Virus record (IMG/VR): IMGVR_UViG_3300042291_001523
Coordinates: 1-45,873 of that record
Direction: 5' to 3' (one strand)
From: a virus
Length of the DNA stretch: 45,873 nt
Part shown: positions 24,447 through 38,915 of the stretch, one piece after another
Layout: each line of letters opens with the position of its first letter
Position numbering within the stretch: the first letter of the stretch is position 1
Program-made: the position numbers and the translations under genes
Notes under the pieces: model-generated
Database searches by the model: none
What the model was told of the DNA's origin: nothing
The model's input: only the letters and a program-made list of their open reading frames with translations

Positions 24447-24505
24447 TGGATACCCTTTCACTGGTAGATGAACGCCACACGCCGTGTTGCTTGTGGCTTG
24501 CCACA

Positions 24506-24722: not shown

Positions 24723-24755
24723 GTTCCCCCCAACAAGCAAAAAAAGAGAAGGGGA

Positions 24756-24798
24756 GTTATCTACTCTCAAATAGAAAGGGGTAACGAGAGTAGATAAC
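24756..24798. repeat. Inverted pair of family A motifs
   Basis: GTTATCTACTCTC and its complement, 13-bp arms, 17-base loop, downstream of the LysM gene. Confidence 0.7.
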
Positions 24799-24827
24799 CC
24801 CGAACAGGCTCGCCCTGCGTGGTGGTG

Positions 24828-25115
24828 CTAGGGGCGAGGCGAGGCTACTGGCAGGTGAATGGTCTGCCATGTGTCTAGTTGTGCGCCATAGATTGACACG
24901 AGCCTACTGATGACTTCCTGAATGTCACCAGCGCAATGACGGTGAGCAATGTCCCACAGAGTGTCGGCAGTCTTTATGTCCACGACATGAGTATCACAGG
25001 AGAATGTGGGCTGTTTCGTAACTTCATTCAGTCCCCACCAGCAAGCACCCAGCAAGGCGATTACTAATGGGATAGAGACTATGAAACGGCGTAGTGCGTA
25101 CTTATCTACTCTCAT
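24828..25115 (-). CDS. Membrane-anchored LysM protein, 95 aa
   Basis: A single membrane helix (residues 11-28) precedes a LysM-like domain (43-90: DTLWDIAHRHC, a helix, and WQTIHLP). LysM binds peptidoglycan glycan strands. The N-terminal helix plus one LysM is the layout of YneA-type cell-division inhibitors of Gram-positive bacteria, about the same length. The start overlaps the upstream stop by ATGA and itself begins a family A copy (Met-Arg-Val-Asp-Lys). Confidence 0.65.
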   Translation of the reverse strand: MRVDKYALRRFIVSIPLVIALLGACWWGLNEVTKQPTFSCDTHVVDIKTADTLWDIAHRHCAGDIQEVISRLVSIYGAQLDTWQTIHLPVASPRP

Positions 25116-25576
25116 GCCGTTACTGCCTTGATTGCGATTGTGTCCCAAGCGTGACGGCTTAGTGGTTCAGTCGTGAGCAAGTGTGTCGTTTCATCTCTGA
25201 CGATTGTGTGAACTTCCAAATAGTCGTGATGAATAATGTACAGATAATCGCACCATGCGAACTCTGTATCGTCATTTGTAAATAACGCACTAGGGTCGTC
25301 TAGTTCCACATCTGTGTGTGCGTATCCGTAGCCCTCTATTAGTGCTTTGTCCTCATAGAGATTAGGTACGCCACTTTTTGCCATTGGTTCTATTTGTGAC
25401 CATGAAGCCGTATCGGTGATAAGTGTCTTGATGACCTTATCTACTCCATCTCTTGCTACTAACTCGCCTAGTACATAGGTCATGCGCTCTGGGTAGTTGT
25501 CCCAATGCGTGTAGCGACCTTGCCACTTGTTCTCACTCTCCGAGAGTGATTGTGCCACGATACCTCGTGTTGCCAT
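25112..25576 (-). CDS. Conserved actinophage-type protein, 154 aa
   Basis: Begins MATRGIVAQSL and contains GRYTHWDNYPERM and CDYLYIIHHDYLEV, a pattern common to small phage proteins of this class that start with a beta domain and HWDGYP. Standard GAAAGGGG ribosome site. Overlaps the LysM gene. Function unknown. Confidence 0.65.
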   Translation of the reverse strand: MATRGIVAQSLSESENKWQGRYTHWDNYPERMTYVLGELVARDGVDKVIKTLITDTASWSQIEPMAKSGVPNLYEDKALIEGYGYAHTDVELDDPSALFTNDDTEFAWCDYLYIIHHDYLEVHTIVRDETTHLLTTEPLSRHAWDTIAIKAVTA

Positions 25577-25606
25577 TTGTGTCCCCTTTCATTTGTGAAC
25601 ACCCGA

Positions 25607-25635
25607 AGCGTACCACCCCTCGTACAGACTTCCAA
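25607..25635 (-). promoter_or_regulatory. Family promoter for 25576 operon
   Basis: TTGGAA, 17-bp spacer beginning GTCTGTAC, TACGCT; family A copy at 25639. Confidence 0.7.
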
Positions 25636-25768
25636 AAAAGTTATCTACTCTCATTAGTTCCCACCCGAAAACCCCCACAGGAGTAAAGTTATCTCTCACT
25701 CCCCCGTGTTTGTCTTTCACCCCGTTGGGGGGAAAGCCCCGCTGTGAGGGCTATCGGTAGGTGGATAA

Positions 25769-25942
25769 GTGACTATTTATTTGTGGGATTACGAGAAGCG
25801 ATTGGCTCGGATAGAGGAACTAACTCGCGAGGCGAACAGGCTCACTACTCTTGTGCGCGAAGCCAATGACGAAACGCGAGCCATTCTTGCTAGGTCTAAG
25901 TTTGGGCTCGTTTCAGACTTATCTACTCCCAATACAAAGTAG
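25769..25942 (+). CDS. Orphan plus-strand coiled-coil protein, 57 aa
   Basis: GTG start with AGGTGG close upstream. Reads MTIYLWDYEKRLARIEEL and continues as a charged coiled coil (EANRLTTLVREANDETRAIL). It is the only plus-strand gene among minus-strand neighbours here, and a family A copy (25917) lies in its last codons. Short coiled-coil proteins of this form (WDYEKRLARIEEL) occur in actinophages. Confidence 0.5.
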   Translation: MTIYLWDYEKRLARIEELTREANRLTTLVREANDETRAILARSKFGLVSDLSTPNTK

Positions 25943-26030
25943 ATAAAAACAACAGAAAACGGGCTAACTCACCATTTCGCAAGTCAGCCCGTTCTGTCAG
26001 GGTGAAGCCCTCTTACAGAGGGAAAGGGGA

Positions 26031-26474
26031 TTAGAGGTACTTCACCACGCTGTGATAGGTGCTTGTGGACACCACTTCATTGTCAGCCATTTCCAAAACG
26101 CGAATAGCGTTCTCCAATGCTTCTTTGTCTGCGCGATACTCCCACTCACGGTAAGTGTCAGGACATTTCGGCTGTTCGGTCAAAAGTGCCTTGGGAATGT
26201 TCAGGGTTAGTTCCACTACTGCTGTTTTGTCATCTTGTGGTGCGTTTCCCCAACGACTGCGCTCGGTCACACTTTCAGGCTTTGCCTTGCCGTTCTTTAC
26301 AGAAGCAATTACTGACTTCATAAAGTCTGCTTGCCATTTTTCTTGTGCTTTTTTGTAATCGGCTTCTGTTTTTTCATTTTTTGTGAAGCGTTCCTCACGG
26401 ACTGCTAACGCTTTTTGTAAGGCGTCAATAAGCACACTTACTTTCACCTTCACGCTGATGTTTTTGTTGGACAT
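26031..26474 (-). CDS. Unknown protein, 147 aa
   Basis: A conserved-looking N-terminus (ISVKVKVSVLIDALQKAL) leads to a helix-rich Lys/Glu middle, a basic patch with SRWGNAPQDDK, and a C-terminal helix. No family recognised. Ribosome site region is AGGAGAGAAAAATG. Confidence 0.6.
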   Translation of the reverse strand: MSNKNISVKVKVSVLIDALQKALAVREERFTKNEKTEADYKKAQEKWQADFMKSVIASVKNGKAKPESVTERSRWGNAPQDDKTAVVELTLNIPKALLTEQPKCPDTYREWEYRADKEALENAIRVLEMADNEVVSTSTYHSVVKYL

Positions 26475-26516
26475 TTTTCTCTCCTGCCAGCAGGGTTGGT
26501 ATTTGCTGACCTGCGA

Positions 26517-26545
26517 ACTGTACCAGCGTAGGTACAGACTTCCAA
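26517..26545 (-). promoter_or_regulatory. Family promoter for 26474 gene, family B at -35
   Basis: TTGGAA, 17-bp spacer beginning GTCTGTACC, TACAGT. Here the motif abutting the -35 is the B type (AGAGATAAC) rather than the A type. Confidence 0.7.
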
Positions 26546-26592
26546 AAGTTATCTCTTACCCCCCCCATTTATTCCTTTCGGTTTGTAGAGAT

Positions 26593-26624
26593 AGCCCCGG
26601 CCGTTCGCCGACAATGCCGGGGCT
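26593..26624. terminator. Two-hairpin GC-rich element between inverted family B copies
   Basis: AGCCCCG pairs with CGGGGCT. The inverted B copies at 26548 and 26660 enclose it, giving a 120-bp symmetric element. Confidence 0.5.
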
Positions 26625-26723
26625 TTCTACCCAAAGGCGAGCAGAGGGCGAATGGGGGAATGAGAGATAAGTCGGCTCAAAGTTTCTTTGACATTCCGAC
26701 ACGCAACACCCCTTGTAATAAGT

Positions 26724-27026
26724 ATGACTACCTACGGTTCACACACCCCCCTTCCATACACGACCAAACCACACCACGAGTGGACACAGCGTGACTTCTT
26801 TGATTACGAGGTGGACTCGTATTGCCGTTGCGCCACCCGAGTTCGCTATCGCTCTCGTGAGTGGCACGAGTTCACAGAACGCTTTCTGCCGTATTGCGAG
26901 AACTGGAACGGTTGCTGGGTCGCAGAGGAAGCGTGGAATGAGTTCACGCTCTATCTCGTTCTCCCCGAGGGCGAATACATACCCGAGGAATACCCCGAGG
27001 GCTGGCACTTCCGTAGAGGACACTAG
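26724..27026 (+). CDS. Unknown plus-strand protein, 100 aa
   Basis: Start at the ATG giving MTTYGSHTPL. Rich in Trp, Tyr, Glu and Arg, with CENWNGCW, and ends EEYPEGWHFRRGH. A TTGACA lies 29 bases upstream of the start but no good -10. Similar small Trp/Glu-rich proteins occur in phages. It faces the minus-strand gene at 27076. Confidence 0.5.
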   Translation: MTTYGSHTPLPYTTKPHHEWTQRDFFDYEVDSYCRCATRVRYRSREWHEFTERFLPYCENWNGCWVAEEAWNEFTLYLVLPEGEYIPEEYPEGWHFRRGH

Positions 27027-27031
27027 ACAGC

Positions 27032-27069
27032 GTTATCTACTCCCATTCACGCCAATGAGAGTAGATAAC
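27032..27069. repeat. Inverted pair of family A motifs between convergent genes
   Basis: 11-bp arms (GTTATCTACTC and complement) around a 16-base loop, between the plus-strand 26724 gene and the minus-strand 27076 gene. Confidence 0.65.
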
Positions 27070-27075
27070 TTTCGG

Positions 27076-27213
27076 CTATTCGCTTTCGCTCTTACACAAG
27101 CCCTCAATGGCTAGGTCGTAACATTCAGCGCAGTACGCACCTTTCAGGCGTGGACTCGTGTTGATTTCGTAGTAACTGAGTTCGCACTCGCACTTCTCGC
27201 ATACATCATTCAT
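27076..27213 (-). CDS. Small zinc-ribbon protein, 45 aa
   Basis: Cys pairs CEKC (with another Cys in CEC) and CAEC, about 26 residues apart, suggest one zinc site. The ATG directly follows a family A variant (AAGTAGATAAGTC). It is the last gene of the 27734 operon. Confidence 0.55.
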   Translation of the reverse strand: MNDVCEKCECELSYYEINTSPRLKGAYCAECYDLAIEGLCKSESE

Positions 27214-27216
27214 GAC

Positions 27217-27411
27217 TTATCTACTTTCTTTCTTTGCTTGTTCAGCGTTGTGCTTACGGTCACGCTCAATGCCATTCAGCACGGCGAGTATCTGCTTCTC
27301 GGATAGAACGCCTTTGCGCTCAAACTGTGATAACAGGCTCGCATAGAACTTGTTGCGAGTGTGATTTGCTCGCAAGTAGTCATACGCTCTGTCAAAGTCA
27401 GTCAGTCTCAT
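27217..27411 (-). CDS. Small basic helical protein, 64 aa
   Basis: Reads MRLTDFDRAYDYLRANHTRN, then LSEKQILAVLNGIERDRKH. The KFYASLLSQFERKGVLSEKQ pattern resembles small phage proteins that pair with the 38200-type family (compare FARSLAQQFKDKGTLSDKQ there). Ends on AGT AGA TAA, part of a family A motif, and overlaps the upstream gene by ATGA. Confidence 0.6.
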   Translation of the reverse strand: MRLTDFDRAYDYLRANHTRNKFYASLLSQFERKGVLSEKQILAVLNGIERDRKHNAEQAKKESR

Positions 27412-27734
27412 TGGTCAGCCTCGGTTTGGCTAATAATGCGAGCGTTAGGGTAACGCCAGTCAGGATTTGCGAGAGCCGATACGATTTGTCCGTTCTCAAC
27501 GACATAGACAACGAGTTTGCCACCAGTAGTGCGACCCTTCGTGGCAAGTGCTTCGTCAATCGCCTTCACAGCACCATTCAGCGTGTTCGCATAACGCTCA
27601 AAGTTTCCTAAGTCAAATCGGCAGAACGCCCATGTGAACATTCGGTCATTCTCACGAGTGATTTGTACCTCACGATAGATGTAGTGAGTAATCGCCCTTC
27701 CGTTACGAATGGCTAGTGGCTTGGTGGTGGTCAT
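27408..27734 (-). CDS. Unknown protein, 108 aa
   Basis: Starts MTTTKPLAIRNGRAI with an alpha/beta pattern (REVQITRENDRMFTWAFCRF, NGAVKAIDEAL). Standard CTGAAAGGGG ribosome site. First gene of a three-gene operon. No family recognised. Confidence 0.6.
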   Translation of the reverse strand: MTTTKPLAIRNGRAITHYIYREVQITRENDRMFTWAFCRFDLGNFERYANTLNGAVKAIDEALATKGRTTGGKLVVYVVENGQIVSALANPDWRYPNARIISQTEADQ

Positions 27735-27762
27735 GATTTCCCCTTTCAGTTGGAACGCCCTA

Positions 27763-27791
27763 ACTGTACCACTACTGGAACAGGCTTCCGA
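27763..27791 (-). promoter_or_regulatory. Family promoter for 27734 operon
   Basis: TCGGAA, 17-bp spacer beginning GCCTGT, TACAGT; family A copy at 27793. Confidence 0.65.
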
Positions 27792-28008
27792 GAGTTATCT
27801 ACTCTCATTGGGGCAAGCCTTCGCCCCATGCGCCAACCCCTTCGCAGTCGCAGTTATCTCTCACCACCCCCATTTCGCCAGCACTCGTTCCCAACGGGGC
27901 TCTGCCCCCTGCTTGCCCCCCTTTGGGGTGAAAGCCCCGGCTGGCACCGACTAACGCCCTCGCCCAGCGAGGTTGTTCTCGCATGGACAAGGGCAAGTCG
28001 GGGGTTAT

Positions 28009-28602
28009 CTAATCCTCGTAATCTGAGCGATACAGCTCGTCCTGCTCCTCTTGCGTCATGTATTCCATGCTGATGGAACGGTGACCACCTTCGCACTCCC
28101 AGCCAACTCGCACACCGTTGCGAATGACATCTGAAACCTTCGCACCACAGTCAACGATTGCGTAGCGACTGCCTGACTCGGCTGCTCGTTCGCTCAGGCT
28201 TTCCCACCAGTAGAACTCGCTTTCACGGTTCTCCTCGTCTGTGTATTCGGGATTAGGCACGAATGGGAAAGCTGCTTCCCAGTTGCGCTCTACGAGCCAA
28301 CCACAGCGATTCGCTTCCTCACGGTCACGAGCGTTCGCTTCCAGCGCTGATTCACGCTCACGGTCACCTTCCTCAACAATCCAGCCGTAGACATCGTTAC
28401 GAACCTCGTTACGAGCTTTGACTGCCTTGACTGCTTGCTTCGGTGTAAGCGCCTTGTCTCCTTCCCAGCCGAACTGCTCTACAAGCTCGTCATCTGAGTA
28501 GCACTCGGCTAGCTCGGACTCAAAGAATGTCTGTGGGTCTGTGTAAGCAGGTAGCGCTTTGATTGCCTCTACTACTGCTGTGTGGTTTGGGTGTGTGTTC
28601 AT
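28009..28602 (-). CDS. Unknown acidic protein, 197 aa
   Basis: Start at the ATG giving MNTHPNHTAV with GGAAAGGAAC upstream. Very acidic and Trp-rich (EFGWEGDK, FYWWESLSERAAESGSRYAI), with DCGAKVSDVIRNGVRVGWECEGGH near the end as a possible metal site. A CTAATCCTC variant of the family A motif overlaps its stop (GTTATCTAATCC), a decayed copy. Confidence 0.6.
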   Translation of the reverse strand: MNTHPNHTAVVEAIKALPAYTDPQTFFESELAECYSDDELVEQFGWEGDKALTPKQAVKAVKARNEVRNDVYGWIVEEGDRERESALEANARDREEANRCGWLVERNWEAAFPFVPNPEYTDEENRESEFYWWESLSERAAESGSRYAIVDCGAKVSDVIRNGVRVGWECEGGHRSISMEYMTQEEQDELYRSDYED

Positions 28603-28633
28603 CGGTTCGTTCCTTTCCTTTTTGTTCCGATTT

Positions 28634-28735
28634 TTATTTCTTGTTCTTTGGCTTTGATTTGCCACGCTTATTCCAATGACCTGCGCCACCTACGAATGAA
28701 GTAGGTGGTCTACGGTTTTTGTCGTGTGGTTTCAT
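28634..28735 (-). CDS. Very small basic protein, 33 aa
   Basis: An AAGGAGG ribosome site and the family promoter precede MKPHDKNRRPPTSFVGGAGH, with a Lys-rich tail. The strong translation signal argues for expression. It may bind nucleic acid. Confidence 0.5.
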   Translation of the reverse strand: MKPHDKNRRPPTSFVGGAGHWNKRGKSKPKNKK

Positions 28736-28768
28736 GTGTGCCTCCTTGTTTTTGGCTTTTTGATTTAG

Positions 28769-28797
28769 ATGATACCAATCGTGGTACAGACTGTGAT
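28769..28797 (-). promoter_or_regulatory. Family promoter (weak -35) for 28735 gene
   Basis: ATCACA, 17-bp spacer beginning GTCTGTACC, TATCAT. Confidence 0.5.
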
Positions 28798-28973
28798 TCT
28801 TGCTTCTAAAACCCTTTGCCAGTAACAAGTGGCGTTTAGCAACTCGTTAGTTGCGTTACAAACACAAACACGGCTTATCTACTCTCATTGCCTGCTTTTT
28901 TGCTCCCAGCTCCCAGCTCCCAGCGAGTTATCTCTTACCCCCCCGACTGTGACAAGTCCAGCGCAAAGAATGG

Positions 28974-29004
28974 AGCCCCGCTTCGCTTGGGAAACGCCGG
29001 GGCT
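28974..29004. terminator. Two-hairpin GC-rich element
   Basis: AGCCCCG pairs with CGGGGCT, inside an inverted family B pair. Confidence 0.5.
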
Positions 29005-29178
29005 TTCGCCCAAAGGCGTGACGGCGGACATGGGGGAATGAGAGATAAGTTTGATTGCGCGTTTATGGGTCTCGGCGTGGTGGCACATGAACAATGAGAG
29101 TAGATAACTTTCACGCGTGGTGGCGCGTTGTTCTACCCTGCCAGCGTTGCGCCAACAGAGTAGATAACTTTCACGCGC

Positions 29179-30342
29179 CTACGGAACTAGCAGGCGCGCC
29201 TTGCTTGGGCGTTTGTAGAACCCGAAACACTCATCACGGTCTGAACGCTCAACGCTCGCCGTGAACTCAATACGGTCTCCCACGCATGGGTCAAGCGCGC
29301 TAGGTTGCGAACCCCACACGGTAAATCCAGAGTCATCGCGAACTGTCATGACATAGCGCGTACCGAAATCGGTATCTTTCGTATCTACGGATACAACCAC
29401 GCCAACTACCGTGACGCGCCCCACAGGGCAGGGTACGCGAACCTCATTAGCGCGCTCGCGCTCGCGTTCAGCATTACGCTCGGCGTGTTCTAGGTGCTTG
29501 TCATACGCGCGCGCAAGCGATACCAGCAAGCCCATACGCTTGCTATCAGTCACGCCAGCAAGCACCACAGAGCGCAAGTTAGCGAGATAGCCACTCTCAT
29601 CAGTAGTTGCGCTAATCCACTCGATAGCCAACACGGCGCGCGCGTAATGCTCGATAGTGGTTTCGACTTTCTCATCGCGCCCTCTTGGGCGTAGAGCGTT
29701 ATCTACTCGCATACGCGTAGTAATGCCTTCGACACGATTACCGTCAGCGTCAGTAGAACTACGCCAGCCATGCGCCTCGATAATCGCAACAGACAGCGCA
29801 ACAATGCGTGTCAGGGACTCGCTCGAACCACCACCCGATGAACGCTCGCCACTCCACTCGCTCAAATCGGTATCAAAAATCTCCCACACAGCAGGCAAGT
29901 TATGACCAGTAAAATCACGCAGACATGACTTACCAACTCGATGACTCACGCCAGCCTCATCACGAATAACTATCGTGAACTTGCGCGCACGATTATGCCC
30001 ACAATGGTCACAGGTAGCAGGCGCGTGAAGCAGGTCAGTAGGCGCGTGTTCGCGCGCGTATGGCGCAACGCTCACGATGTTGCCAGTATCAAAATGCTCA
30101 ACGCTTGCTACTACTTGCCAGCCACCAGCCAACACAGGGCGTTCGCCATGAATGACATACGCGATAAACGGCTCAATGGATTCGCGCCCAAGTTCATCGG
30201 TGCGCTTCTCCATGAATCGGCGCGTCACTTCGACAGTAGGCGCAGATACGCCCATGCGCGCGCAACGCTTCGCTAGAACGCGCTCGCGCTCGACTAACTC
30301 AGCCTCGTAGTACGCAGGCACAATGATTTCATGAGTGGTCAT
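29179..30342 (-). CDS. Zinc-binding conserved phage/plasmid protein, 387 aa
   Basis: Start fixed by GAAAGGGG before ATG at 30342. Residues 115-150 have CDHCGHNRARKFTIVI, then VGKSCLRDFTGHN, a treble-clef-like zinc site found in a family of conserved proteins on actinobacterial plasmids and phages. The C-terminal 90 residues look like an OB-type beta domain (GRVTVVGVVVSVD, FTVWGSQPS). Codons here are richer in GCG and CGC than in neighbouring genes, which may mean separate origin. Confidence 0.65.
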   Translation of the reverse strand: MTTHEIIVPAYYEAELVERERVLAKRCARMGVSAPTVEVTRRFMEKRTDELGRESIEPFIAYVIHGERPVLAGGWQVVASVEHFDTGNIVSVAPYAREHAPTDLLHAPATCDHCGHNRARKFTIVIRDEAGVSHRVGKSCLRDFTGHNLPAVWEIFDTDLSEWSGERSSGGGSSESLTRIVALSVAIIEAHGWRSSTDADGNRVEGITTRMRVDNALRPRGRDEKVETTIEHYARAVLAIEWISATTDESGYLANLRSVVLAGVTDSKRMGLLVSLARAYDKHLEHAERNAERERERANEVRVPCPVGRVTVVGVVVSVDTKDTDFGTRYVMTVRDDSGFTVWGSQPSALDPCVGDRIEFTASVERSDRDECFGFYKRPSKARLLVP

Positions 30343-30370
30343 GATTTCCCCTTTCAGTTGGAACACCCCA

Positions 30371-30399
30371 ACAATACCAGCACAGGTACAGGCTCTCGA
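30371..30399 (-). promoter_or_regulatory. Family promoter for 30342 gene
   Basis: TCGAGA, 17-bp spacer beginning GCCTGTACC, TATTGT; family A copies at 30400 and 30436. Confidence 0.6.
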
Positions 30400-30530
30400 A
30401 AGTTATCTACTCTCTTTCAGAGTCTCGCTCTCGAAAGTTATCTACTCTGTTTCGCCTCGCCCCTCGCGCGCCCTCGACCAGCAGGCTTATCTCTCACACC
30501 CCCGTTTCGCCTGCCCCCCTTTGGGGTGAA

Positions 30531-30562
30531 AGCCCCGATGGGGAACCACGCGTAGCGGGGCT
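30531..30562. terminator. GC-rich hairpin followed by CGAGG hairpin
   Basis: AGCCCCG pairs with CGGGGCT. Immediately after it lies the repeated CTAACGCCCTCGC/GCGAGG hairpin (30565-30596), also seen near 27951, 32455, 33233 and 38737. Confidence 0.5.
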
Positions 30563-30630
30563 TACTAACGCCCTCGCCATGCGAGGTTGTTCTCGCAATG
30601 ACGACGGAGATTCCGGGGAGTTATCTACTC

Positions 30631-30969
30631 TCAGTATCGGCCGTCCAAAATCATTTTCTTGTATTTCTCAAACATCTCAAAAGCATCGTGACGGCTATCG
30701 CAATCTTCAAGTTGTGGCACTGTTGTCTTGTCTTTCCAGATAACAATCTTGTAACACTTGATGACACAGTACGTGTCTGTCGTGAGGCCTTCTGCCATGT
30801 ACTCGAAATAATCTGCATTTATTTCTAAGCGTGATTTTTCATTTTCCCATGCGTCCACTACGTCAGTACCGATGGCTGTTCCGATAGGTACTAATTCACG
30901 GTTGAGTTCGTTCGCCCAATCCAATGCGTCTTGCCACTCTCTAAAAGTTGTGTAATTTTTATTTTTCAT
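30631..30969 (-). CDS. Unknown protein, 112 aa
   Basis: Reads MKNKNYTTFREWQDALDWAN; acidic and aromatic, with possible metal-binding Cys in TYCVIKCYK. GAAAGGGG ribosome site. The stop TGA abuts a family A copy. No family recognised. Confidence 0.55.
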   Translation of the reverse strand: MKNKNYTTFREWQDALDWANELNRELVPIGTAIGTDVVDAWENEKSRLEINADYFEYMAEGLTTDTYCVIKCYKIVIWKDKTTVPQLEDCDSRHDAFEMFEKYKKMILDGRY

Positions 30970-30997
30970 TGGCTGCCCCTTTCACTTGGCTGCAATA

Positions 30998-31026
30998 AAC
31001 ATACCACACGAGGTACAGACTTGTGA
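30998..31026 (-). promoter_or_regulatory. Family promoter for 30969 gene
   Basis: TCACAA, 17-bp spacer beginning GTCTGTACC, TATGTT; family A copy at 31028. Confidence 0.65.
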
Positions 31027-31183
31027 AAGTTATCTACTCTCAATAGTTAGCGCGCTAAACTTTTCCCTCACCCCAACTTTCGCCTTTCGGCGAAAGCCCC
31101 GCTTATTCGCGCAGCAAGCGCGTAATGAGGCTATGATTCTCGCAGTCGGCGCGAAGCTGACGCGCAACATCAAGGAGACAACC

Positions 31184-31414
31184 GTGGGAATACCGAAGAA
31201 GAAGCCAGTCGACAAGAAACCGGCCAAGAAGAAGGCCGTGGCCAAGAAGAGAATTGCTCTTCCACGTAAGACAGTGAAGCCAGTAAAGGTCGCGTCTACG
31301 AGTACGTCTAGCACGGTGTCTATTACAACAGTAAGAGTTACTCCTGTTACCAAAGTGAGCAGCACATCTATTACCCCAGGCACAAAAGTCTCTTACAAGT
31401 CTGAAAAGAAGTAG
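31184..31414 (+). CDS. Lysine-rich histone-like protein, 76 aa
   Basis: GTG start with AAGGAG upstream. The N-terminal half is a Lys/Ala/Pro-rich tail (KKKPVDKKPAKKKAVAKKR), the second half Ser/Thr/Val repeats (STSSTVSITT, VTPVTKV). The basic tail resembles histone H1-like tails, so DNA binding is likely. It leads a plus-strand operon. Confidence 0.5.
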   Translation: MGIPKKKPVDKKPAKKKAVAKKRIALPRKTVKPVKVASTSTSSTVSITTVRVTPVTKVSSTSITPGTKVSYKSEKK

Positions 31415-31416
31415 CC

Positions 31417-31713
31417 GTGGTAGGTAAAGATGCGTGGGGATTCGACCCGGCCGGTATGATGGCCAGGTTGAGAGAAGGAGAAAAAATGACTTTTGATGAA
31501 TGGATAAAAATTGGTCTTGATTCCGGATGGTGTGGCCCACCGGTTTGTTACACCCACGATGGATTACCAATGTCCGAAGAAGAAGAAACTGAATTCGAAG
31601 AAGGAGACCCATGCGTACACGTGATTCGTATGTACGAGAGCGAAGAGCACAAGCAATCGGTAGAGGACGCGCACTCGCCGAGCCAATGGCGCAATCATTA
31701 CTCGAAGGATTAG
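31417..31713 (+). CDS. Conserved actinophage protein, 98 aa
   Basis: Contains GWCGPPVCYTHDGLP followed by an acidic EEEETEFEEGDPCVHVIRMYE stretch in two parts. This PPVCYTHDG...DPCxH pattern is common in actinophages and may hold a metal. GTG start. Its last 103 bases also encode the start of the next gene in another frame. Confidence 0.6.
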   Translation: MVGKDAWGFDPAGMMARLREGEKMTFDEWIKIGLDSGWCGPPVCYTHDGLPMSEEEETEFEEGDPCVHVIRMYESEEHKQSVEDAHSPSQWRNHYSKD

Positions 31714-31892
31714 ATACTCTCGCAGCGCTACTTAGACAGAGCGCAATGTTTCATTTATTGATGAGCTTGTTTGCCGGATACATGGGATTGATTACTCACT
31801 CGGATTTCTTGGCAACCATTGTTATCGCAACTGGCGCTTGCTGCTCTCTTAGAGCTTTGTATCTTGCTCGCATCCAGGGACTAATAGAGTAG
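31611..31892 (+). CDS. Small membrane protein overlapping upstream gene, 93 aa
   Basis: A GAAGGAGA ribosome site inside the upstream gene precedes the ATG. A basic N-terminal region is followed by two hydrophobic helices (about 46-62 and 66-85). The TAG stop lies in a family A copy (GAGTAG). Confidence 0.5.
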   Translation: MRTRDSYVRERRAQAIGRGRALAEPMAQSLLEGLDTLAALLRQSAMFHLLMSLFAGYMGLITHSDFLATIVIATGACCSLRALYLARIQGLIE

Positions 31893-31976
31893 ATAACCCC
31901 GAGATTTTAGTCGGGGCTCCCAACGCCCCCAGGTCGATTTCGCTTTGCGAGCATGTGGGGGAATGAGAGATAAGTT

Positions 31977-32005
31977 TTGGAAGTCTGTACTGTGCGTGGT
32001 ACATT
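31977..32005 (+). promoter_or_regulatory. Family promoter, plus strand, family B at -35
   Basis: TTGGAA, 17-bp spacer beginning GTCTGTAC and ending GTGG, TACATT. The B motif GAGAGATAAG abuts the -35. Confidence 0.75.
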
Positions 32006-32032
32006 GGTGCTGTACCAGTGAAAGGGGACATG

Positions 32033-32272
32033 ATGAAAACAAGACTTTTATCAGACATTGCCAGTGACATTCGAGCCGATTGGGCTAACCCATACTTTGG
32101 GGCCGTTCCATACTTGGATGCCATGAGCACATTGAGCAGTATCGACGATACTTATGGCATGGACGATGCGAAATACATCGTGGTGTATTTCTTGAGCAAT
32201 GCTACGACATGGCGTGGCCCAGTGGCACGAGACATCAAAAAGGAACTCAAGAAGTTGGCAGGCCTCAAGTGA
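32033..32272 (+). CDS. Conserved actinophage protein, 79 aa
   Basis: Reads MKTRLLSDIASDIRADW, then PYLDAM, YGMDDAKYIVVYFLSNATTWRG and a KKELKKL end. This short family (PYLxAM...YGxDxxxxIVxYFLSNAxxWRG) is very common in mycobacteriophages and other actinophages; function unknown. I prefer the second ATG (32033), five bases after GAAAGGGG. Confidence 0.75.
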   Translation: MKTRLLSDIASDIRADWANPYFGAVPYLDAMSTLSSIDDTYGMDDAKYIVVYFLSNATTWRGPVARDIKKELKKLAGLK

Positions 32273-32421
32273 AAGAAGCAACTACAAGTCGCATCAAAGA
32301 AGTGCTGGCAAGTCACGAGAATGTCATTTGCCTAGAATGTTTGCGATTGTTTGACTTGCTGAATGAGCAAGAAGCGAACGAATGGTTTTACGGCCACGAT
32401 TGCGAAACTGTTTCAGAGTAG
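32269..32421 (+). CDS. Small zinc protein, 50 aa
   Basis: GTG start overlapping the previous stop (GTGA). Reads MKEATTSRIKEVLASHENV, then CLEC and a HDC near the end, a likely zinc site. The TAG stop lies in a family A copy. Confidence 0.55.
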   Translation: MKEATTSRIKEVLASHENVICLECLRLFDLLNEQEANEWFYGHDCETVSE

Positions 32422-32548
32422 ATAACTTTCGCCCCCCCGACTCTCACCCTCATTGCGTGAACAACCTCACGCAGTGAGGGCGTTAGTCAGTGAAGCCGGG
32501 GCTTTTGTCCAAAAAGCAGAACTGCGCATGGGGGTGTGAGAGATAAGT

Positions 32549-32577
32549 TTGCAAGTCTGTCCCCTGGGTGGTACGAT
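32549..32577 (+). promoter_or_regulatory. Family promoter, plus strand, family B at -35
   Basis: TTGCAA, 17-bp spacer beginning GTCTGT, TACGAT; GAGAGATAAG immediately upstream. Confidence 0.75.
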
Positions 32578-32606
32578 AAAGGCAGACCAACTGAAAGGGG
32601 TTCACA

Positions 32607-32933
32607 ATGGAAACGACCGACAAACTTGAAATGCTCAAAGAGCAACTGGAAGAAATGACAGACCAGGTGAAAAAAATGGCAGAGGCTCTAAGAACACCAA
32701 CGCCATGCGATTGCTGTTTCACTCTCCAAGAAAACGCTGATAACTATCTTGACTTTGAGAACGCAGTTCTTGACATTTCCAACAAGTGCCAGGAAATTCA
32801 CATGACAGCGAACCTGTGTTACTGGGCTGTTCTTTCCGTTCCACACGAGATTGCTCTTGCGAAACTACAAGCAGAAAATCGTGAACACTTTTACACACAC
32901 CCTGACAGCAACGCTTTCATTTCCTGGGACTAA
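32607..32933 (+). CDS. Coiled-coil protein, 108 aa
   Basis: Start METTDKLEMLKEQLEEMTDQ gives a heptad coiled coil over about 30 residues, then PCDCCF and a second helical region. GAAAGGGG ribosome site. Unknown role. Confidence 0.6.
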   Translation: METTDKLEMLKEQLEEMTDQVKKMAEALRTPTPCDCCFTLQENADNYLDFENAVLDISNKCQEIHMTANLCYWAVLSVPHEIALAKLQAENREHFYTHPDSNAFISWD

Positions 32934-32950
32934 GAGAGAGTAGATAACTC

Positions 32951-33169
32951 ATGAACATAGAAAACAACTCATACACCAAGACGCACAACAAGTTTGTGTT
33001 GTGTCCTCGCTGTGAAGGTTTTATTCCGAACAACGAAACACCAGGCGCATACCCAGGTGCTATTTCTCGCATTGACAACAAGACCGAAATCTGTTCAGCC
33101 TGTGGTGTTTCAGAAGCGTTCCTTGATTACGAAGGCAGACTGACAGACTGGCGCAAGCCACAAGAGTAA
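32951..33169 (+). CDS. Conserved actinophage zinc-ribbon protein, 72 aa
   Basis: LCPRCEGFIPNNETPG, then SRIDNKTEICSACG: two CxxC pairs with the conserved IPNxxTPGAYPGAxSRxDNKTEICSxCG pattern found across actinophages. The ATG follows a family A copy (AACTCATG), which here could act as operator or leader. Confidence 0.75.
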   Translation: MNIENNSYTKTHNKFVLCPRCEGFIPNNETPGAYPGAISRIDNKTEICSACGVSEAFLDYEGRLTDWRKPQE

Positions 33170-33301
33170 ATCACTCACAACTTCATCATGAAGAGAGAGT
33201 AGATAACTTCACAAGGAGCCCCGGCTTCGCCGACTAACGCCCTCGCTTCGCTTCGGTTGTTCTCGCTCTGAAAACGAGAGAACGGAGAGAGTAGATAACT
33301 T

Positions 33302-33330
33302 TTGAAAGTCTGTACTCCCCGTGGTACATT
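33302..33330 (+). promoter_or_regulatory. Family promoter, plus strand, best consensus match
   Basis: TTGAAA, 17-bp spacer beginning GTCTGTAC and ending GTGG, TACATT. A family A copy ends at the -35 box. Confidence 0.8.
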
Positions 33331-33358
33331 GTTGGTGTCTCAACGAAAGGGGATTCAA

Positions 33359-33700
33359 ATGTCGTCCGACATCACATTCATCAACAAGGTGCAGGAAGCA
33401 CTGGAAGCAGGGGTCATCATTGCTGATGGTCACACGCTTTTCGCACCTGAGTTTTACGAGCCGTTCTTCACGGCAACAGAACTCGGACACCTCATCCGTA
33501 AGCACGAATCTCACGGCTCGTGGAAATCCACCATCTTTGACGAGAACGGTGAAGTCATTCCTGAACTGGAAGCCATTTACAATCTCGACTTTTTGTACTG
33601 GCTCGCCAGCAAACTCGGAGTCACGAAGCACACCACTGCGATGGGTCGTGGTTCACAGGCTGAACAACTGAAAGGCTTCATCCGAGAAGCAATCGCATAA
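33359..33700 (+). CDS. Unknown protein, 113 aa
   Basis: Start MSSDITFINKVQEALEAG with GAAAGGGG upstream. Contains an alpha/beta mix (HTLFAPEFYEPFFTATELGHLI) and a C-terminal helical end. Followed by two tandem hairpins. No family recognised. Confidence 0.6.
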   Translation: MSSDITFINKVQEALEAGVIIADGHTLFAPEFYEPFFTATELGHLIRKHESHGSWKSTIFDENGEVIPELEAIYNLDFLYWLASKLGVTKHTTAMGRGSQAEQLKGFIREAIA

Positions 33701-33704
33701 GTTT

Positions 33705-33737
33705 GGTTCTCTCGGTTTCCTTCCCTCCGAGAGAACC
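33705..33737 (+). terminator. Hairpin downstream of 33359 gene
   Basis: GGTTCTCTCGG and its exact complement CCGAGAGAACC form an 11-bp stem with an 11-base loop, four bases after the stop codon. Confidence 0.65.
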
Positions 33738-33747
33738 CTCACGGGAA

Positions 33748-33784
33748 ACGCCCCACAAGAGTTATCTACTCTCTTGTGGGGCGT
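33748..33784 (+). terminator. Perfect terminator hairpin with family A motif as loop
   Basis: ACGCCCCACAAGAG and its exact complement form a 14-bp stem whose nine-base loop TTATCTACT, with bases of the stem, makes a family A motif. A TTCTCTTTTT tract follows on the plus strand. A clear intrinsic terminator. Confidence 0.8.
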
Positions 33785-33951
33785 TCTCTTTTTCTCAATC
33801 AAATGTGCTCACAGAAGTTATCTACTCTATTGGCGTGACGCAGGTGCACAGGTTCGCTTCGCAGTGCGCTCAATCCAGCGAGTGTGTGAAATCGGAAACT
33901 TATCTCTCACTCCCCCATCCTCAACTTTCCCCCTTCGGGTGAAAGCCCCGC

Positions 33952-34089
33952 TTATGGGCAGCAAGCTCTTGGTGGTCTGCGATGTAAGCGGCTGAATTTT
34001 GGAACGTCAGCGATTGGAATAGCTTGCGGCTCTGGTTTTGGAGCTTCTGCTGGGAGTTGAGCTTCTGGTTCTTCGTTATTTTCTGTCAT
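33952..34089 (-). CDS. Small Pro/Glu-rich protein, 45 aa
   Basis: Reads MTENNEEPEAQLPAEAPKPE, continuing PQAIPIADVPKFSRLHRRPP. AGGAC precedes the ATG. Disordered in appearance, ending in a hairpin region. Likely co-transcribed with the 34147 gene. Confidence 0.45.
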   Translation of the reverse strand: MTENNEEPEAQLPAEAPKPEPQAIPIADVPKFSRLHRRPPRACCP

Positions 34090-34146
34090 GTCCTATTTTC
34101 TCACAATTTCTAAATTAGATGGGGCAGCAAGAGATAAGTCAGGTTT

Positions 34147-34347
34147 TTAAAAAAGAGGAACATCCATGGTTTGCGGCCGGTCGTTGCAATGTATGTGCTT
34201 GTATTCGTGGAGCTCTTCGACTACCCGATTAATGGCCTTGCCGCCCGATTTAAGCCAAACAATAGCCTTGCGCTCAACGGTGTTATCTCCAGGACGAAGC
34301 GATAGGCCGCAGACGTAGCAGACAAAAAGAGGAGGCAATCCGGTCAT
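34147..34347 (-). CDS. Small zinc-binding protein, 66 aa
   Basis: CYVCG and a HIHC near the C-terminus suggest a zinc site, with VERKAIVWLKSGGKA between. The start MTGLPPLFVC has AAAGG nine bases upstream; a longer in-frame start at 34425 would run through a family A copy. Similar C-terminal HxHC proteins occur in actinophages. Confidence 0.5.
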   Translation of the reverse strand: MTGLPPLFVCYVCGLSLRPGDNTVERKAIVWLKSGGKAINRVVEELHEYKHIHCNDRPQTMDVPLF

Positions 34348-34459
34348 GTTGATGGACCTTTCATAGAGTAGATAAGGCATCCTAGCGCGAGGCCTAACTA
34401 AAATCTCAATAGTTTTGCCATTCACGAAGAAAGGTGACTAGGATGTCGGCATAGGAATT

Positions 34460-34514
34460 AACAGGGCTCTCGCAACCTCTCTCCTTTCGGTACATCCCCA
34501 GCGTGAGCCCTGTT
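34460..34514. promoter_or_regulatory. Long hairpin before the SNF2 gene
   Basis: AACAGGGCTC and its exact complement GAGCCCTGTT are 35 bases apart, and the right arm lies 21 bases before the ATG at 34536. In RNA it would form a stem-loop near the start, or it could be a protein site in DNA. Confidence 0.45.
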
Positions 34515-34535
34515 GGTTTCTACTATGATGAACCC

Positions 34536-36452
34536 ATGAGGTTGTACTTAGATAAAAACGAGATAGTGCTCGACTTCCCATACGATGCACATCAGGTCTC
34601 GGAACTGAAACTAATAAAAGGTTCGCGCTGGGATAAGCAAACAAAGCTATGGAGAGTTCCGGTTACCTCTCTGGAAGCTGCTCGAGATTTCGCCATCAAA
34701 CACGACTTCACCGTGACTATTGATGTCCTCACATTTAACGCCCCCAAAATCAAAACTGGCAAAGCAAAAGTCTCACTCGAAGATGAAATGATTTCTATCC
34801 GTGTTCCGTACGAGCGCGTTGTTGTGAAAGCCGTGAAACAAATACCAGCAGTTTCGTGGAACGCCGATAAACACTGCTGGCAAGCACCCGTGTCGTCTGT
34901 TCTAAATACCATCGAATGGGCAGAGAAGTTTGATGTGGTAGTGGACCCTGCTGTTGCTGCACTATCGGACCAAGTAACGGCACGTATGAACGAGTTCGTT
35001 GAGGCCTCGCGCGCGACAGAAGCCCATGTTGACATCGCGGCATTACAAGGAGAACTGCTTCCCTATCAGCATGCCGGAGTCGTATACGCAGCCCGTGCTC
35101 GACGTACATTTATTGCCGATGACATGGGGTTAGGTAAAACTCTCCAATCAATAGCAACGCTCGAATACGTTATGGATTCGTATCCGGCCGTGGTCGTTTG
35201 TCCACCGAGCTTGGTTCTCAACTGGGTAACAGAATGGAACCGGTGGCTGCCTAATCGAAAGGTTGTACCGGTAACCAATCGCAAAGACTTCCCTGAACGT
35301 GGCTCGTATGACGTTGTTGTTGTTGGTTATAGCAACATTGCTCACTGGGAGAAGCGACTTACCGGACATCGTTCCTACATCTTCGACGAAAGTCATTACG
35401 CAAAAACACCAACAGCACAAAGAACAAAAGCAGCAGTAAAGATGGCTAAGTCTGCTCACAAAGACGGCCTCGTACTGTGTCTCACCGGAACGCCAGTGAC
35501 TAATCGTCCGAATGAATACGCTTCTCAGTTAGAAATACTGGGAAGGTTAAAAGACTTCGGTGGTCTTTGGGGTTTTTATCGACGCTATTGCGCTGCCTAC
35601 CAAGACAACTTCGGCCAATGGAACATCGCCGGCCATTCGCACCTCGACGAACTAAACGAGCGCCTTCGAGGTACGTGCTACATAAGAAGAACGAAAGACC
35701 AAGTGCTTTCAGAACTTCCTCCCGTAATGCATAGCAAGCTGCTGGTAGAGGGAAGCTCTGCTGCAATGAAAGAATACAAGAAAGCAGAAACAGACATCCT
35801 GTTGTACATCGCTGAACGAGCACGACAACTCGCTCTCGAACAAGGAAAGCCGTCTTACGGTGCTGCTATTCACGCAATGATTAAAGCAGAAGCTAACGAA
35901 CACCTAGTTCGACTATCGGTACTTCGTAAGCTCGCTGCCAAAGCGAAGATGGAAGTCGTAGAAGAGTGGATAAACACCCGTATAGAGAACGGAAAGAAAG
36001 TTGTCGTTGCTGCTCACCATAGAGACATTGTCGATGAGTTGGCTAGGAAGTTTGGTAACTTGCGCATTCAGGGTGGCATGAGCGTAGAGGAAGTCGAAGA
36101 GAACAAGCATCGTTTTCAGACGGAAGACATCGAAAGCGCACCCGTAATTGTTTTGTCAATACAAGCTGCAAAGACTGGACACACATTGACGGCAGCAGAA
36201 GAGTGCTTGTTTGTTGAGTTGCCGTGGACGCCGGCCGATGTTGACCAGACTTACAGTAGATTGCACAGAATTGGACAAAAAGGAAGCGTAACGGCTACGT
36301 ACATGCTTGCAGCCGGAACAATAGACGAAGAAATCTACGAGATTATTGACAAAAAACGTTCAGTAGTCAATGCTGCTGTTGATGGTGGGGAAGTAGATAA
36401 CTCTGACTTTTCTACCCAGATGATTCTTAGCTTGCTAGATAAGCTTTCTTAA
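34536..36452 (+). CDS. SNF2-family helicase/translocase, 638 aa
   Basis: Walker A DDMGLGKT at 195-202, DESH at 284-287, LTGTP motif III, and the C-terminal QTYSRLHRIGQ motif VI are all present. Two short N-terminal repeats (about 24-42 and 102-120; Trp-Asp/Asn ... Trp-x-x-Pro-Val) resemble HARP-type annealing motifs of SMARCAL1-like enzymes. These ATP-driven DNA translocases act in repair and fork remodelling. The ATG at 34536 follows TATGAT by six bases; a GTG at 34503 is an alternative. A family A copy is in codons for VDN near the end. The 3' end overlaps the next gene. Confidence 0.9.
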   Translation: MRLYLDKNEIVLDFPYDAHQVSELKLIKGSRWDKQTKLWRVPVTSLEAARDFAIKHDFTVTIDVLTFNAPKIKTGKAKVSLEDEMISIRVPYERVVVKAVKQIPAVSWNADKHCWQAPVSSVLNTIEWAEKFDVVVDPAVAALSDQVTARMNEFVEASRATEAHVDIAALQGELLPYQHAGVVYAARARRTFIADDMGLGKTLQSIATLEYVMDSYPAVVVCPPSLVLNWVTEWNRWLPNRKVVPVTNRKDFPERGSYDVVVVGYSNIAHWEKRLTGHRSYIFDESHYAKTPTAQRTKAAVKMAKSAHKDGLVLCLTGTPVTNRPNEYASQLEILGRLKDFGGLWGFYRRYCAAYQDNFGQWNIAGHSHLDELNERLRGTCYIRRTKDQVLSELPPVMHSKLLVEGSSAAMKEYKKAETDILLYIAERARQLALEQGKPSYGAAIHAMIKAEANEHLVRLSVLRKLAAKAKMEVVEEWINTRIENGKKVVVAAHHRDIVDELARKFGNLRIQGGMSVEEVEENKHRFQTEDIESAPVIVLSIQAAKTGHTLTAAEECLFVELPWTPADVDQTYSRLHRIGQKGSVTATYMLAAGTIDEEIYEIIDKKRSVVNAAVDGGEVDNSDFSTQMILSLLDKLS

Positions 36453-36895
36453 TCTTCTGCTGCTCGTGATTCGGAAGAATCGACGCCCGTAATAATTTCT
36501 TGCGCAATAAGCTTGGCGTACTTACGGCGTAAGCGCCAAATCTTTCTATTCATTTCGGTTAACCCACTACTCATGCGCGCCTTGATGATTGCGTCGTCGT
36601 CGAATACCCCGTAAGCATTAAACAACGCATCATGAAGTTCCGTGTCCTCGATTAGAATGTCCGAAATCCATCCGGCTTTCTTATCTATCGACATCATCAG
36701 TTCGCACATTCCTTCTGCACCGAACTCTTCCCAGAGGCGATTTACGACAATGTTGCAGTAATGGCTACGGTACAAGCGCTGAGCTTTCTGTGATTGAGAC
36801 ATGAACTCAGAGAGCCATACGGCAAGTTCGGCGCTCGATGGGCCTTCTTCATCCTCAAAGTCGAAGACTTCATCGTTATCGTCATTTTCATTCAC
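36449..36895 (-). CDS. Unknown acidic protein, 148 aa
   Basis: GTG start with GAAGGGAAC upstream. An acidic head (DDNDEVFDFEDEEG) is followed by an all-helical body (WLSEFMSQSQKAQRLYRSHY, IWRLRRKYAKLIAQEI). The end overlaps the SNF2 stop by four bases on the opposite strand. No family recognised. Confidence 0.6.
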   Translation of the reverse strand: MNENDDNDEVFDFEDEEGPSSAELAVWLSEFMSQSQKAQRLYRSHYCNIVVNRLWEEFGAEGMCELMMSIDKKAGWISDILIEDTELHDALFNAYGVFDDDAIIKARMSSGLTEMNRKIWRLRRKYAKLIAQEIITGVDSSESRAAED

Positions 36896-36939
36896 GATTG
36901 TTCCCTTCGGCTTTCTCTATCTAAATGATACAGCCGAGA

Positions 36940-37968
36940 TTAGGATACTCCTGACAATAGATAATCCTGAGCCTTTACTTTTGCTCGTGTCACCCATGAG
37001 TTGTTGCTCATAGACGCGAGTGCTCGCTCGGTAGGTGTTGCTTCGCGATAGTGGTCGAGATACTCGCCGATTGCGTTGACCAAAGACCAGCCGTTGTACC
37101 CGTAGTTCTTTGCGTTGTTATCGTTTGCGTAAATTGCGCGTACCAATGCTGTTACTTCTTTGTGGTTTGTTTCTTGACGCGCTGTTGCGTCTTTGCTTAT
37201 CGGGAATACTTGATTCAGTGTCTTGTCAAGTATTTGAGAAGAAGCAGGAACATTTATTGACAGCAACTTTTCTGCTGTAAGCGTGAACTCGCGAGCCCAT
37301 TCGGTCGAGATGTTGAGAACTTCGTTCGCTTGCTCCATTGCTCTATCTGCATTGCGTGTATGGCGCGCAGTAAAGACTCGCTTCGCTGATGAAACACCAG
37401 CAATAACTGTGTTTTTACATACGGCACGAATACTCGTGTTCGCAAAGGTAATCGCCGTTTTGCCGTCATGTCCATTGTGTACGAGTAGATAACGCTCAAT
37501 CGAGTCATTGATTCCTGCTGGGTCGATTATCAGCGCACCCATGTCAATAGACGCAAAGAATTCACAGCCATCTCTCAGCACCCCACAGGTATCCACAACG
37601 GCGTCCCCGTCCGAAGCTCCAACTATGTCGAGGGCGTAATTGAGGCATTCCCGATTTTGCTGAACTACATAGCGAGTACCCACTGTTGCTAGTCCATTAA
37701 ACGACCCGTCCGTATTCACCCGTACCGTTGCTCTGCTATCTGGAACGAGGATTGTAGTTCCGTCTGGTTGGCGAATCGGCTCGCCTTCATCGTCACATAC
37801 GGCTACCCGTGTCGTTACTACGTCGAAATCTGCCTGTGCTGCTGCGAGCATTGCCTCAGCCGTTTGTAGGCCTTTCATAGGCTGCCCAAGCTTGTGCCAT
37901 GGAATCTGTCGGTCTGCGTACGCCATGCGTGCCGTGCCGTCTTTGTTGATTTCTATCTGATGAGCCAT
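36940..37968 (-). CDS. DUF932-family phage/plasmid protein, 342 aa
   Basis: Begins with AYADRQIPWHKLGQPM and has VGTRYVVQQNRECLNYALDIV, then FANTSIRAVCKNTV and a C-terminal NNSWVTRAKV: the pattern of DUF932/TIGR03299 proteins, common on phages and plasmids, function unknown. Upstream lies AGATAAATCTATCT, the palindromic relative of family A. A family A copy within the gene (37480) is in the opposite orientation to most. Confidence 0.8.
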   Translation of the reverse strand: MAHQIEINKDGTARMAYADRQIPWHKLGQPMKGLQTAEAMLAAAQADFDVVTTRVAVCDDEGEPIRQPDGTTILVPDSRATVRVNTDGSFNGLATVGTRYVVQQNRECLNYALDIVGASDGDAVVDTCGVLRDGCEFFASIDMGALIIDPAGINDSIERYLLVHNGHDGKTAITFANTSIRAVCKNTVIAGVSSAKRVFTARHTRNADRAMEQANEVLNISTEWAREFTLTAEKLLSINVPASSQILDKTLNQVFPISKDATARQETNHKEVTALVRAIYANDNNAKNYGYNGWSLVNAIGEYLDHYREATPTERALASMSNNSWVTRAKVKAQDYLLSGVS

Positions 37969-37994
37969 AGCCGTCTCCGTCTCTGTTTTCTTAT

Positions 37995-38008
37995 AGATAA
38001 ATCTATCT
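37995..38008. repeat. Palindrome AGATAAATCTATCT upstream of DUF932 gene
   Basis: One mismatch from AGATAAATTTATCT. Lies 27 bases before the DUF932 start, a position suited to an operator. Confidence 0.45.
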
Positions 38009-38141
38009 GAAAGATACCCAGTTCCAGTGCAACAGTTATTAGCGGGGCTCCCCCCTTGGGGGCGTTGCTCGCGCGTGGGGGTGGTGAGAGATAAGTCTGC
38101 TGGTTTGAGTGAAGTGGCGTACTAGCAGAGTAGATAACTCT

Positions 38142-38170
38142 TCGCAAGTCTGTACCCCTGCTGGTACGAT
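38142..38170 (+). promoter_or_regulatory. Family promoter, plus strand
   Basis: TCGCAA, 17-bp spacer beginning GTCTGTACC and ending TGG, TACGAT; family A copy (38128) abuts the -35. Confidence 0.75.
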
Positions 38171-38199
38171 TTGGGTATTCCAACTGAAAGGGGAACCCA

Positions 38200-38667
38200 A
38201 TGAGAACCATTATGAACGAGCACACAGGCGAAATCCCTGCCGACCAAAGTTTGGAGGCGTGCCGAGCACGCTCCTACACAAAGCGCAACACGCAGTGCGC
38301 CTCGGCTGACCTGCCTGAAGAATGGGAAAGCATCCACGATGCAACGCTGGAGCAAAAGTGCAATCGCCTCGCCACGGTGAACACAGGCAAATACGAGTTC
38401 GCCCGTAGCCTCGCTCAGCAGTTCAAGGACAAGGGAACACTTTCCGACAAGCAAATCGTCTGGGTCAATCGCCTCTACCACGAACACGCCGAAATCAATC
38501 GCATCGTGCGTAATGTTCGTGGAGCACACGAATGGACAACGGTCGGTGCAATCACCCACAACCTAAACACAGTGCTCGGCACTTACGCCATTACCAACTT
38601 CCACAAGTGCGACAGATGTGGCGAATGGGGCGAGACCTACGAAAGCAACAACTACTCGGGCGACTGA
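38200..38667 (+). CDS. Unknown protein with zinc motif, 155 aa
   Basis: GAAAGGGG ribosome site fixes the start. The middle (KYEFARSLAQQFKDKGTLSDKQIVWVNRLYHE) resembles the 27217 protein and a helical phage family. CDRC near the C-terminus is half of a possible zinc site. Similar proteins occur in actinophages. Confidence 0.6.
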   Translation: MRTIMNEHTGEIPADQSLEACRARSYTKRNTQCASADLPEEWESIHDATLEQKCNRLATVNTGKYEFARSLAQQFKDKGTLSDKQIVWVNRLYHEHAEINRIVRNVRGAHEWTTVGAITHNLNTVLGTYAITNFHKCDRCGEWGETYESNNYSGD

Positions 38668-38880
38668 CCACCCCCCCCAAAAAAAAGACGGCACTCGGAG
38701 TAGATAACCCCCCAACCCCGACCCTGCGTCGTCAGGGCGAGAACAACCTCGCGAAGCGAGGGCGTTAGCCAGCAAAGCCGGGGCTTTCGCTCAAACCTGC
38801 TGACATCGGGAGCGAAACGGGGGGGGTGAGAGATAACTCGGATTACCAAAAACAACAAACACACAGAGAGTAGATAACTT

Positions 38881-38909
38881 TTGCAAGTCTGAACCAGCGA
38901 TGGTACATT
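38881..38909 (+). promoter_or_regulatory. Leaderless family promoter
   Basis: TTGCAA, 17-bp spacer beginning GTCTG, TACATT, then six bases to the ATG at 38916. Family A copy at 38864. Confidence 0.7.
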
Positions 38910-38915
38910 GTGTGC

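Follow-up and report, generated by a model that had tools for sequence, protein, structure and literature searches.

The short motif that recurs along one region of a 45,873-bp virus record (IMGVR_UViG_3300042291_001523, 48% G+C; “the window” hereafter, meaning the whole stretch of DNA that was analysed) would be, with a probability that we put at about 0.6 from the sequence evidence, the asymmetric ca. 13-bp site of one diffusible and most probably phage-encoded protein, acting through operators at promoters and through stoperator-like roadblocks elsewhere. The sites, their strand, spacing and conservation, their confinement to one region and their concerted switching among relatives were all observed here.

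The window is assigned to a family of phages of ca. 150–170 kb, with at least 121 relatives found in IMG/VR through the neighbouring AAA gene (16101-16832), on contigs of up to 170 kb. Genes and promoters were called from the sequence with purpose-written scripts, on contigs that may be incomplete. There was no match to the integrase domains PF00589 and PF00239 in the window or in the records of nine relatives (which may be fragments), and we read the phages of this family as apparently virulent, i.e., strictly lytic. No DNA similarity to isolated phages was found for the 30–34 kb stretch of the window, and the nearest terminases, at ca. 43%, were those of archaeal psiM phages and Gordonia phages. 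The search for a host by way of prophages gave one exact match in 257 Gb, on a Hydrocoleum contig, which is about what chance would provide. From the reading of its translation, one gene is WhiB-like (7704-8054), and a “freshwater-type” label for the window would derive from the type of relative in which whiB is known, and not from sample data. The window also contains a gene for a proteasome-subunit-like protein that is kept within the family (5933-6565), and a low-complexity tract in which GATGA and GGGGT are repeated and whose long ORF is probably spurious (42320-43402).

Motif copies and promoters in the window

The main form of the motif (A, AGAGTAGATAAC) is present in 43 exact copies, all between 12.1 and 40.8 kb; when up to two mismatches are allowed there are 74 matches, against 2.9 ± 1.6 in shuffled sequences. 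The second form (B), GGGGGxGTGAGAGATAA, consists of a G tract plus (G)AGAGATAA and has a GAGATAA ending. In the relative G008 there are also sites preceded by a G tract but carrying the usual core GTAGATAA, and because of this A and B are probably one family. The total amounts to 89 sites (68 A-type and 21 B-type), all within 11342..40793. Fifteen of them abut promoters, 3 lie 13–21 bases away from one, 15 are at the start or stop of a gene, 10 are intragenic and 46 are elsewhere in intergenic DNA; about 70 of the 89 are thus away from any promoter. The copies that do not abut a promoter are found in gene junctions, beside terminator-like hairpins and near starts and stops; in some (e.g., 20475-, 18093- and 32939+, the sign giving the strand) there is overlap with a stop codon or a ribosome site. 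Most A sites (55 of 68) are not fully coding, and between co-directional genes 38 sites point along transcription and 8 against it.

Six pairs of A copies are inverted (minus, then plus), hairpin-capable and mostly located at gene 3' ends (21740-21791, 22613-22658, 23672-23709, 24756-24798, 25918-25947 and 27032-27069). There is also a recurring intergenic cassette in which a gene stop is followed by motif A, a GC hairpin, a G tract with motif B, a second motif A and the promoter (17035-, 20053-, 22509-, 24645-, 30487- and others). In G008 the genes are ordered and oriented differently, the ParA-like gene of the window (20858-21463) being inverted and moved, and genes look as if they were travelling with their cassettes.

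The promoters next to the motif belong to one rigid class: AAGTCTGTAC, ca. six variable bases (N6) and the extended -10 TGGTACnnT. They are sequence predictions, obtained with a model that was seeded on five instances and then refined. Without the motif columns this model found 21 intergenic promoters in the window where about one would be expected (null sequence, 1), and almost every gene in the motif region has its own predicted promoter. The preliminary description of this DNA had taken the -35 box as the reference point for the motif. A TTGnnA does sit there, its 3' end overlapped by the AAGTCTGTAC box, but it is poorly kept (TTGGAA, TCGCAA, ATCAAA, GTGGAA); given that AAGTCTGTAC is nearly constant, spacing is better measured to this box. 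In the comparison with G001, an 86% identical relative, AAGTCTGTAC had 1 mismatch in 80 aligned positions and TGGTAC 0 in 48 over the promoters. G019 is the one examined lineage in which the class AAGTCTGTAC-N6-TGGTACnnT was not found; the others keep it. Some lineages have a dyad within the promoter, GTACC-N6-GGTAC, a tentative operator of the XRE-type protein described below; this palindrome is broken in G014 (GAACC) and in G008 and G012.

The promoter at 33288 illustrates the arrangement on the plus strand. An exact copy of AGAGTAGATAAC (33288..33299) is followed by TTGAAA (33302-33307), by the AAGTCTGTAC box, the conserved upstream element of the promoter model (33306..33315), and by the extended -10, TGG TACATT (33322..33330); the gene served (33359..33700) codes for 113 amino acids and has no assigned function. 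Expressed as d, the distance from the end of the motif core (...GATAA) to AAGTCTG, the spacing here is 7. The other ten A copies abutting promoters are, on the minus strand, 18865..18876 (gene 18097-18798), 21536..21547 (the ParA-like gene), 22393..22404, 23988..23999, 25640..25651 (d=9), 27794..27805, 30402..30413 and 31029..31040 and, on the plus strand, 38127..38138 (d=8) and 38867..38878. All eleven had been listed in the preliminary description and they are indeed exact AGAGTAGATAAC, on the promoter strand and directly upstream of this one promoter class. The list was nevertheless incomplete, as 15 sites abut promoters, four of them of the GAGATAA form (motif B): 26549..26558 (minus; promoter 26545-, d=7), 31965..31973 (plus; 31977+, d=7), 32538..32546 (plus; 32549+, d=6) and 40593..40601 (minus; 40589-, d=7).

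Over the 21 promoters d was 7 in ten cases, 8 in two, 6 in one and 9 in one; three more had the motif at 13, 19 and 21 and one at 41, which leaves 18 promoters with a motif within 60 bases and three without. The spacing is clearly not random: 14 of 21 promoters fall at 6–9 bases, while 20,000 draws of random intergenic positions averaged 0.26 and never exceeded 4. Promoters without the motif carry the same core as those with it, and the share of promoters lacking a motif within 60 bases reaches 45% in other lineages.

Motif versions among the relatives

Most of the core-group lineages (among L035-L073, L084 and L090) have their own version of the motif in the same region, many of them with tens of copies; more distant lineages have other repeats or none that stands out. 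In nine genomes the consensus of each lineage is ca. 13 bp long and asymmetric, without dyad symmetry. The 13-mer of the window and of G001 is AGAGTAGATAACT; the other versions are GGAGTAGATAAGTC in G008, AGGTGTAGGTAAGTC in G012 and G013 (as a 13-mer, GGTGTAGGTAAGT in G012), AGGTAGATAAGTC in G014, TAATAGATAAGTC in G015, ACTAGATAAGT in G019, CTAATAGATAACT in G017, ACTAAAGGATAATGTAA in L055 and GAATAAAGATAGCGA in L073. The longer contigs have 43–119 sites each, most of these contigs having nearly all of them inside a single stretch of 40 kb; the strand bias along transcription, counted between co-directional genes, is roughly 3:1 to 9:1 (72:20 in G008).

The comparison of G012 with G008, which share about 80% identity in their common proteins, shows how the versions replace one another. 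Out of 47 alignable G012 sites (TGTAGGTAA), 40 are aligned with GTAGATAA in G008, against 7.6% for random non-coding positions in the alignment. Along the same lines, 30 of 38 alignable sites of G013 face a G008-type site (random non-coding, 2.7%). Dozens of sites have changed the same bases with their positions kept, a concerted switching that is difficult to account for unless a trans-acting reader shifted its specificity. On a shorter scale, between the window and G001, the core of the non-promoter copies had 4.4% mismatches, the adjacent flanks ca. 20% and random non-coding DNA 14%; the eight aligning promoter sites with d=7 gave 15% in the core, a figure from few sites, some of which may be lost or misaligned. 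The proposal that the copies at promoters form a class apart from those in terminators and gene junctions is thus not borne out: the same 12-mer is found in 32 copies elsewhere, the non-promoter copies are constrained and the aligned copies switch together.

The fixed spacing of the preliminary description holds inside the window phage and breaks down between relatives. Orthologous promoters keep the motif, with distances that vary among -2, 6, 7, 10–11 and 14. For the promoter of gene 21854-22324, d is 7 in the window, G001 and G008, 6 in G012 and G017, 14 in G014 and 10 in G015; for that of gene 18097-18798 it is 7 in the window, G008, G012 and G013, -2 in G014 and 6 in G017. In G014, 12 of 22 promoters have a motif that extends into the AAGTC box.

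Candidate readers and mode of action

The XRE-type HTH protein of 75 amino acids (18918..19145, minus strand; Pfam HTH_3, E 4e-15) had been suggested as the reader. Lineages bearing these motifs have homologues of it. What speaks against it is the recognition helix, LAxRAGxDRKTVNRIENG, which hardly varies between lineages whose motifs differ strongly. The protein is therefore unlikely to set the lineage-specific recognition, and may read an element that is constant among lineages. One such element is a second repeat, TTGACGGTGGTGGAAGA, with 6–8 copies per larger genome and unchanged across lineages (in the window at 16974-, 19986-, 22444- and 24588-, and also at 10121-, 12211- and 13708-). One of its copies lies upstream of the apparent promoter of the XRE operon, by 24–26 bases in the window, G001, G008 and G014, by 34 in G012 and by 20 in G017. 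As it is lineage-constant, like the XRE helix, TTGACGGTGGTGGAAGA could be the site of this protein.

Two other proteins are candidates to read the motif. One is a hypervariable MarR-like winged-helix protein (3106..3630, minus strand), which diverges more than any other of the 66 shared families and is adjoined by a highly conserved winged-helix neighbour (3646-4083); a Pfam search with its 3106-3564 part gave nothing convincing. The other has a helical N-terminal region and a C-terminal winged helix (17155..17643, minus strand), is present in all the core-group lineages checked and matched nothing in Pfam or PHROGs. Covariation between proteins and motifs over the 66 families gave no clear winner, the best partial r being 0.38 and that of the winged-helix candidate 0.09, and no DNA-binding protein stood out among the identity outliers of G012 and G013 against G008. 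Among the candidates searched, the profiles of two matched no solved Rep, and for a third the fold search led to MarR-like winged helices. The HA+HTH protein (13309-13686) and the RHH-like proteins (8229-8745) are also DNA-binding candidates; we discarded them because phages whose motifs differ have almost the same versions of these proteins.

We infer that the reader is a protein, encoded by the phage, that represses and blocks elongation. At promoters the bound protein would lie over the upstream portion of the promoter, preventing initiation, and in junctions or by terminators it would form a stoperator-like roadblock halting read-through. The direction of the effect, most likely repression, rests on geometry and analogy. 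The preliminary description had left the promoter copies as operator or activator sites. Their association with promoters and non-random spacing stand, and the operator half is the better of the two; an activator of fixed geometry does not agree with the variable orthologous spacing. Since spacing is narrow within a phage and varies between orthologous promoters, we think a steric operator more likely than an activator of fixed phase: by this argument from geometry, a protein touching the RNA polymerase would not be expected to tolerate variable spacing, while one that merely obstructs would. The likely use would be the shut-off of a block of early or middle genes, or the silencing of incoming related phages, rather than the holding of lysogeny, which is less likely because no integrase was detected. 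At the level of the family, we tentatively propose, as something that may well turn out otherwise, that a large, apparently strictly lytic group of actinophages has a genome-wide operator and stoperator code on its early block, with specificities diverging between near relatives like the immunity groups of temperate phages, that would allow each virus to silence early genes, its own or those of a competitor, in the absence of lysogeny.

There are other possible explanations. A phage activator sitting on the motif could recruit RNA polymerase to middle promoters, in a MotA-like or class II manner, and the tight spacing inside one phage, the poor -35 of promoters that could need help and the position upstream, where activators often bind, would all suit it. 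However, differences of up to 16 bases at orthologous promoters and the overlap with AAGTC in G014 change the face of the helix, most copies are not near a promoter, and promoters without a site share the same core, making this unlikely. Middle promoters of T4 dependent on MotA have a conserved upstream box ca. 12 bases from the -10, and the AAGTCTG-N12-TACnnT of the window promoters recalls this spacing; the likeness concerns the AAGTCTG box and not motif A, whose promoter spacing varies between relatives. The motif could instead work in the transcript, in processing, antitermination or control of translation, its place before promoters being then the 3' end of the upstream transcript. The strand bias, the overlaps with stop codons and ribosome sites and the hairpin-capable inverted pairs are in keeping with such an RNA element. 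Yet 8 of the 46 copies between co-directional genes are anti-sense, a motif upstream of a promoter is outside the transcript of that promoter, its distance to promoters is narrow and in G014 it forms part of the promoter box, and we consider this explanation very unlikely.

A reader provided by the host, e.g., a nucleoid or stress regulator, with the divergence of the motif tracking shifts of phage host, appears similarly improbable. The covariation scan pinned down no phage reader and hosts may differ between lineages, but dozens of sites have switched together among close relatives, a host factor would have to change at the pace of the phage lineages, and in the known parallel, the Cluster A repressors, the protein is phage-encoded. 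Partition or replication sites (parS/ParB or DnaA boxes), already disfavoured, are barely credible. They are brought to mind by the ParA-like gene and by TTATCTAC, faintly like a DnaA box. However, that gene is not general in the family and was not found in several motif-bearing lineages, the sites are strand-biased and scattered among promoters and junctions over ca. 40 kb instead of clustering at a par locus, and lineage versions such as TTACCTACACC and TTATCCTTTAGT are no DnaA boxes.

Comparison with known systems

The obvious reference is the system of operators and stoperators of the Cluster A (L5-like) actinobacteriophages, recognized by the repressor gp71/Rep, whose sites are asymmetric, 13–14 bp long and without dyad (PMC6550527, PMC5559632, PMC5712189). 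They are mostly intergenic and oriented along transcription, a few of them overlap promoters, and their consensus varies between phages with one part constant (PMC6550527, PMC5559632, PMC5712189); for L5-type phages the role of both kinds of site is proven (PMC6550527, PMC9283540, PMC5712189). The sites of the window family are similarly asymmetric, of ca. 13 bp, without dyad, mostly intergenic and transcription-oriented, with 15 at promoters in the window and a consensus that diverges among related phages. By analogy, the system of the window most likely works like that of Cluster A, without necessarily being a member of it. The consensus is unrelated, there are 43–119 copies instead of 20–30, mostly in one region of ca. 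40 kb and at most promoters there, and the phages are of ca. 150–170 kb, with no integrase found, a ParA-like gene that is not general in the family and no Rep homologue recognised among the tested candidates.

The closest parallel in lytic phages is provided by T1 and Stevie, which have asymmetric intergenic repeats of 22 bp in one orientation with respect to transcription, likened by their authors to stoperators, their role being unknown (PMC4319613). The window sites share the asymmetry, the intergenic position and the orientation; T1 and Stevie have 16–20 copies of an unrelated 22-bp sequence, and neither switching nor promoter spacing is described there (PMC4319613). Stoperator-like repeats have thus been worked out in temperate phages, while in lytic ones such as T1 their role is recorded as unknown (PMC4319613). 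Here, in a set of relatives without detected integrases, the sites are more numerous, placed at most early promoters and switched in concert between close relatives. They offer a natural series of how one regulator and dozens of sites shift specificity together, and make it testable whether the reader of one motif version silences only its own kind.
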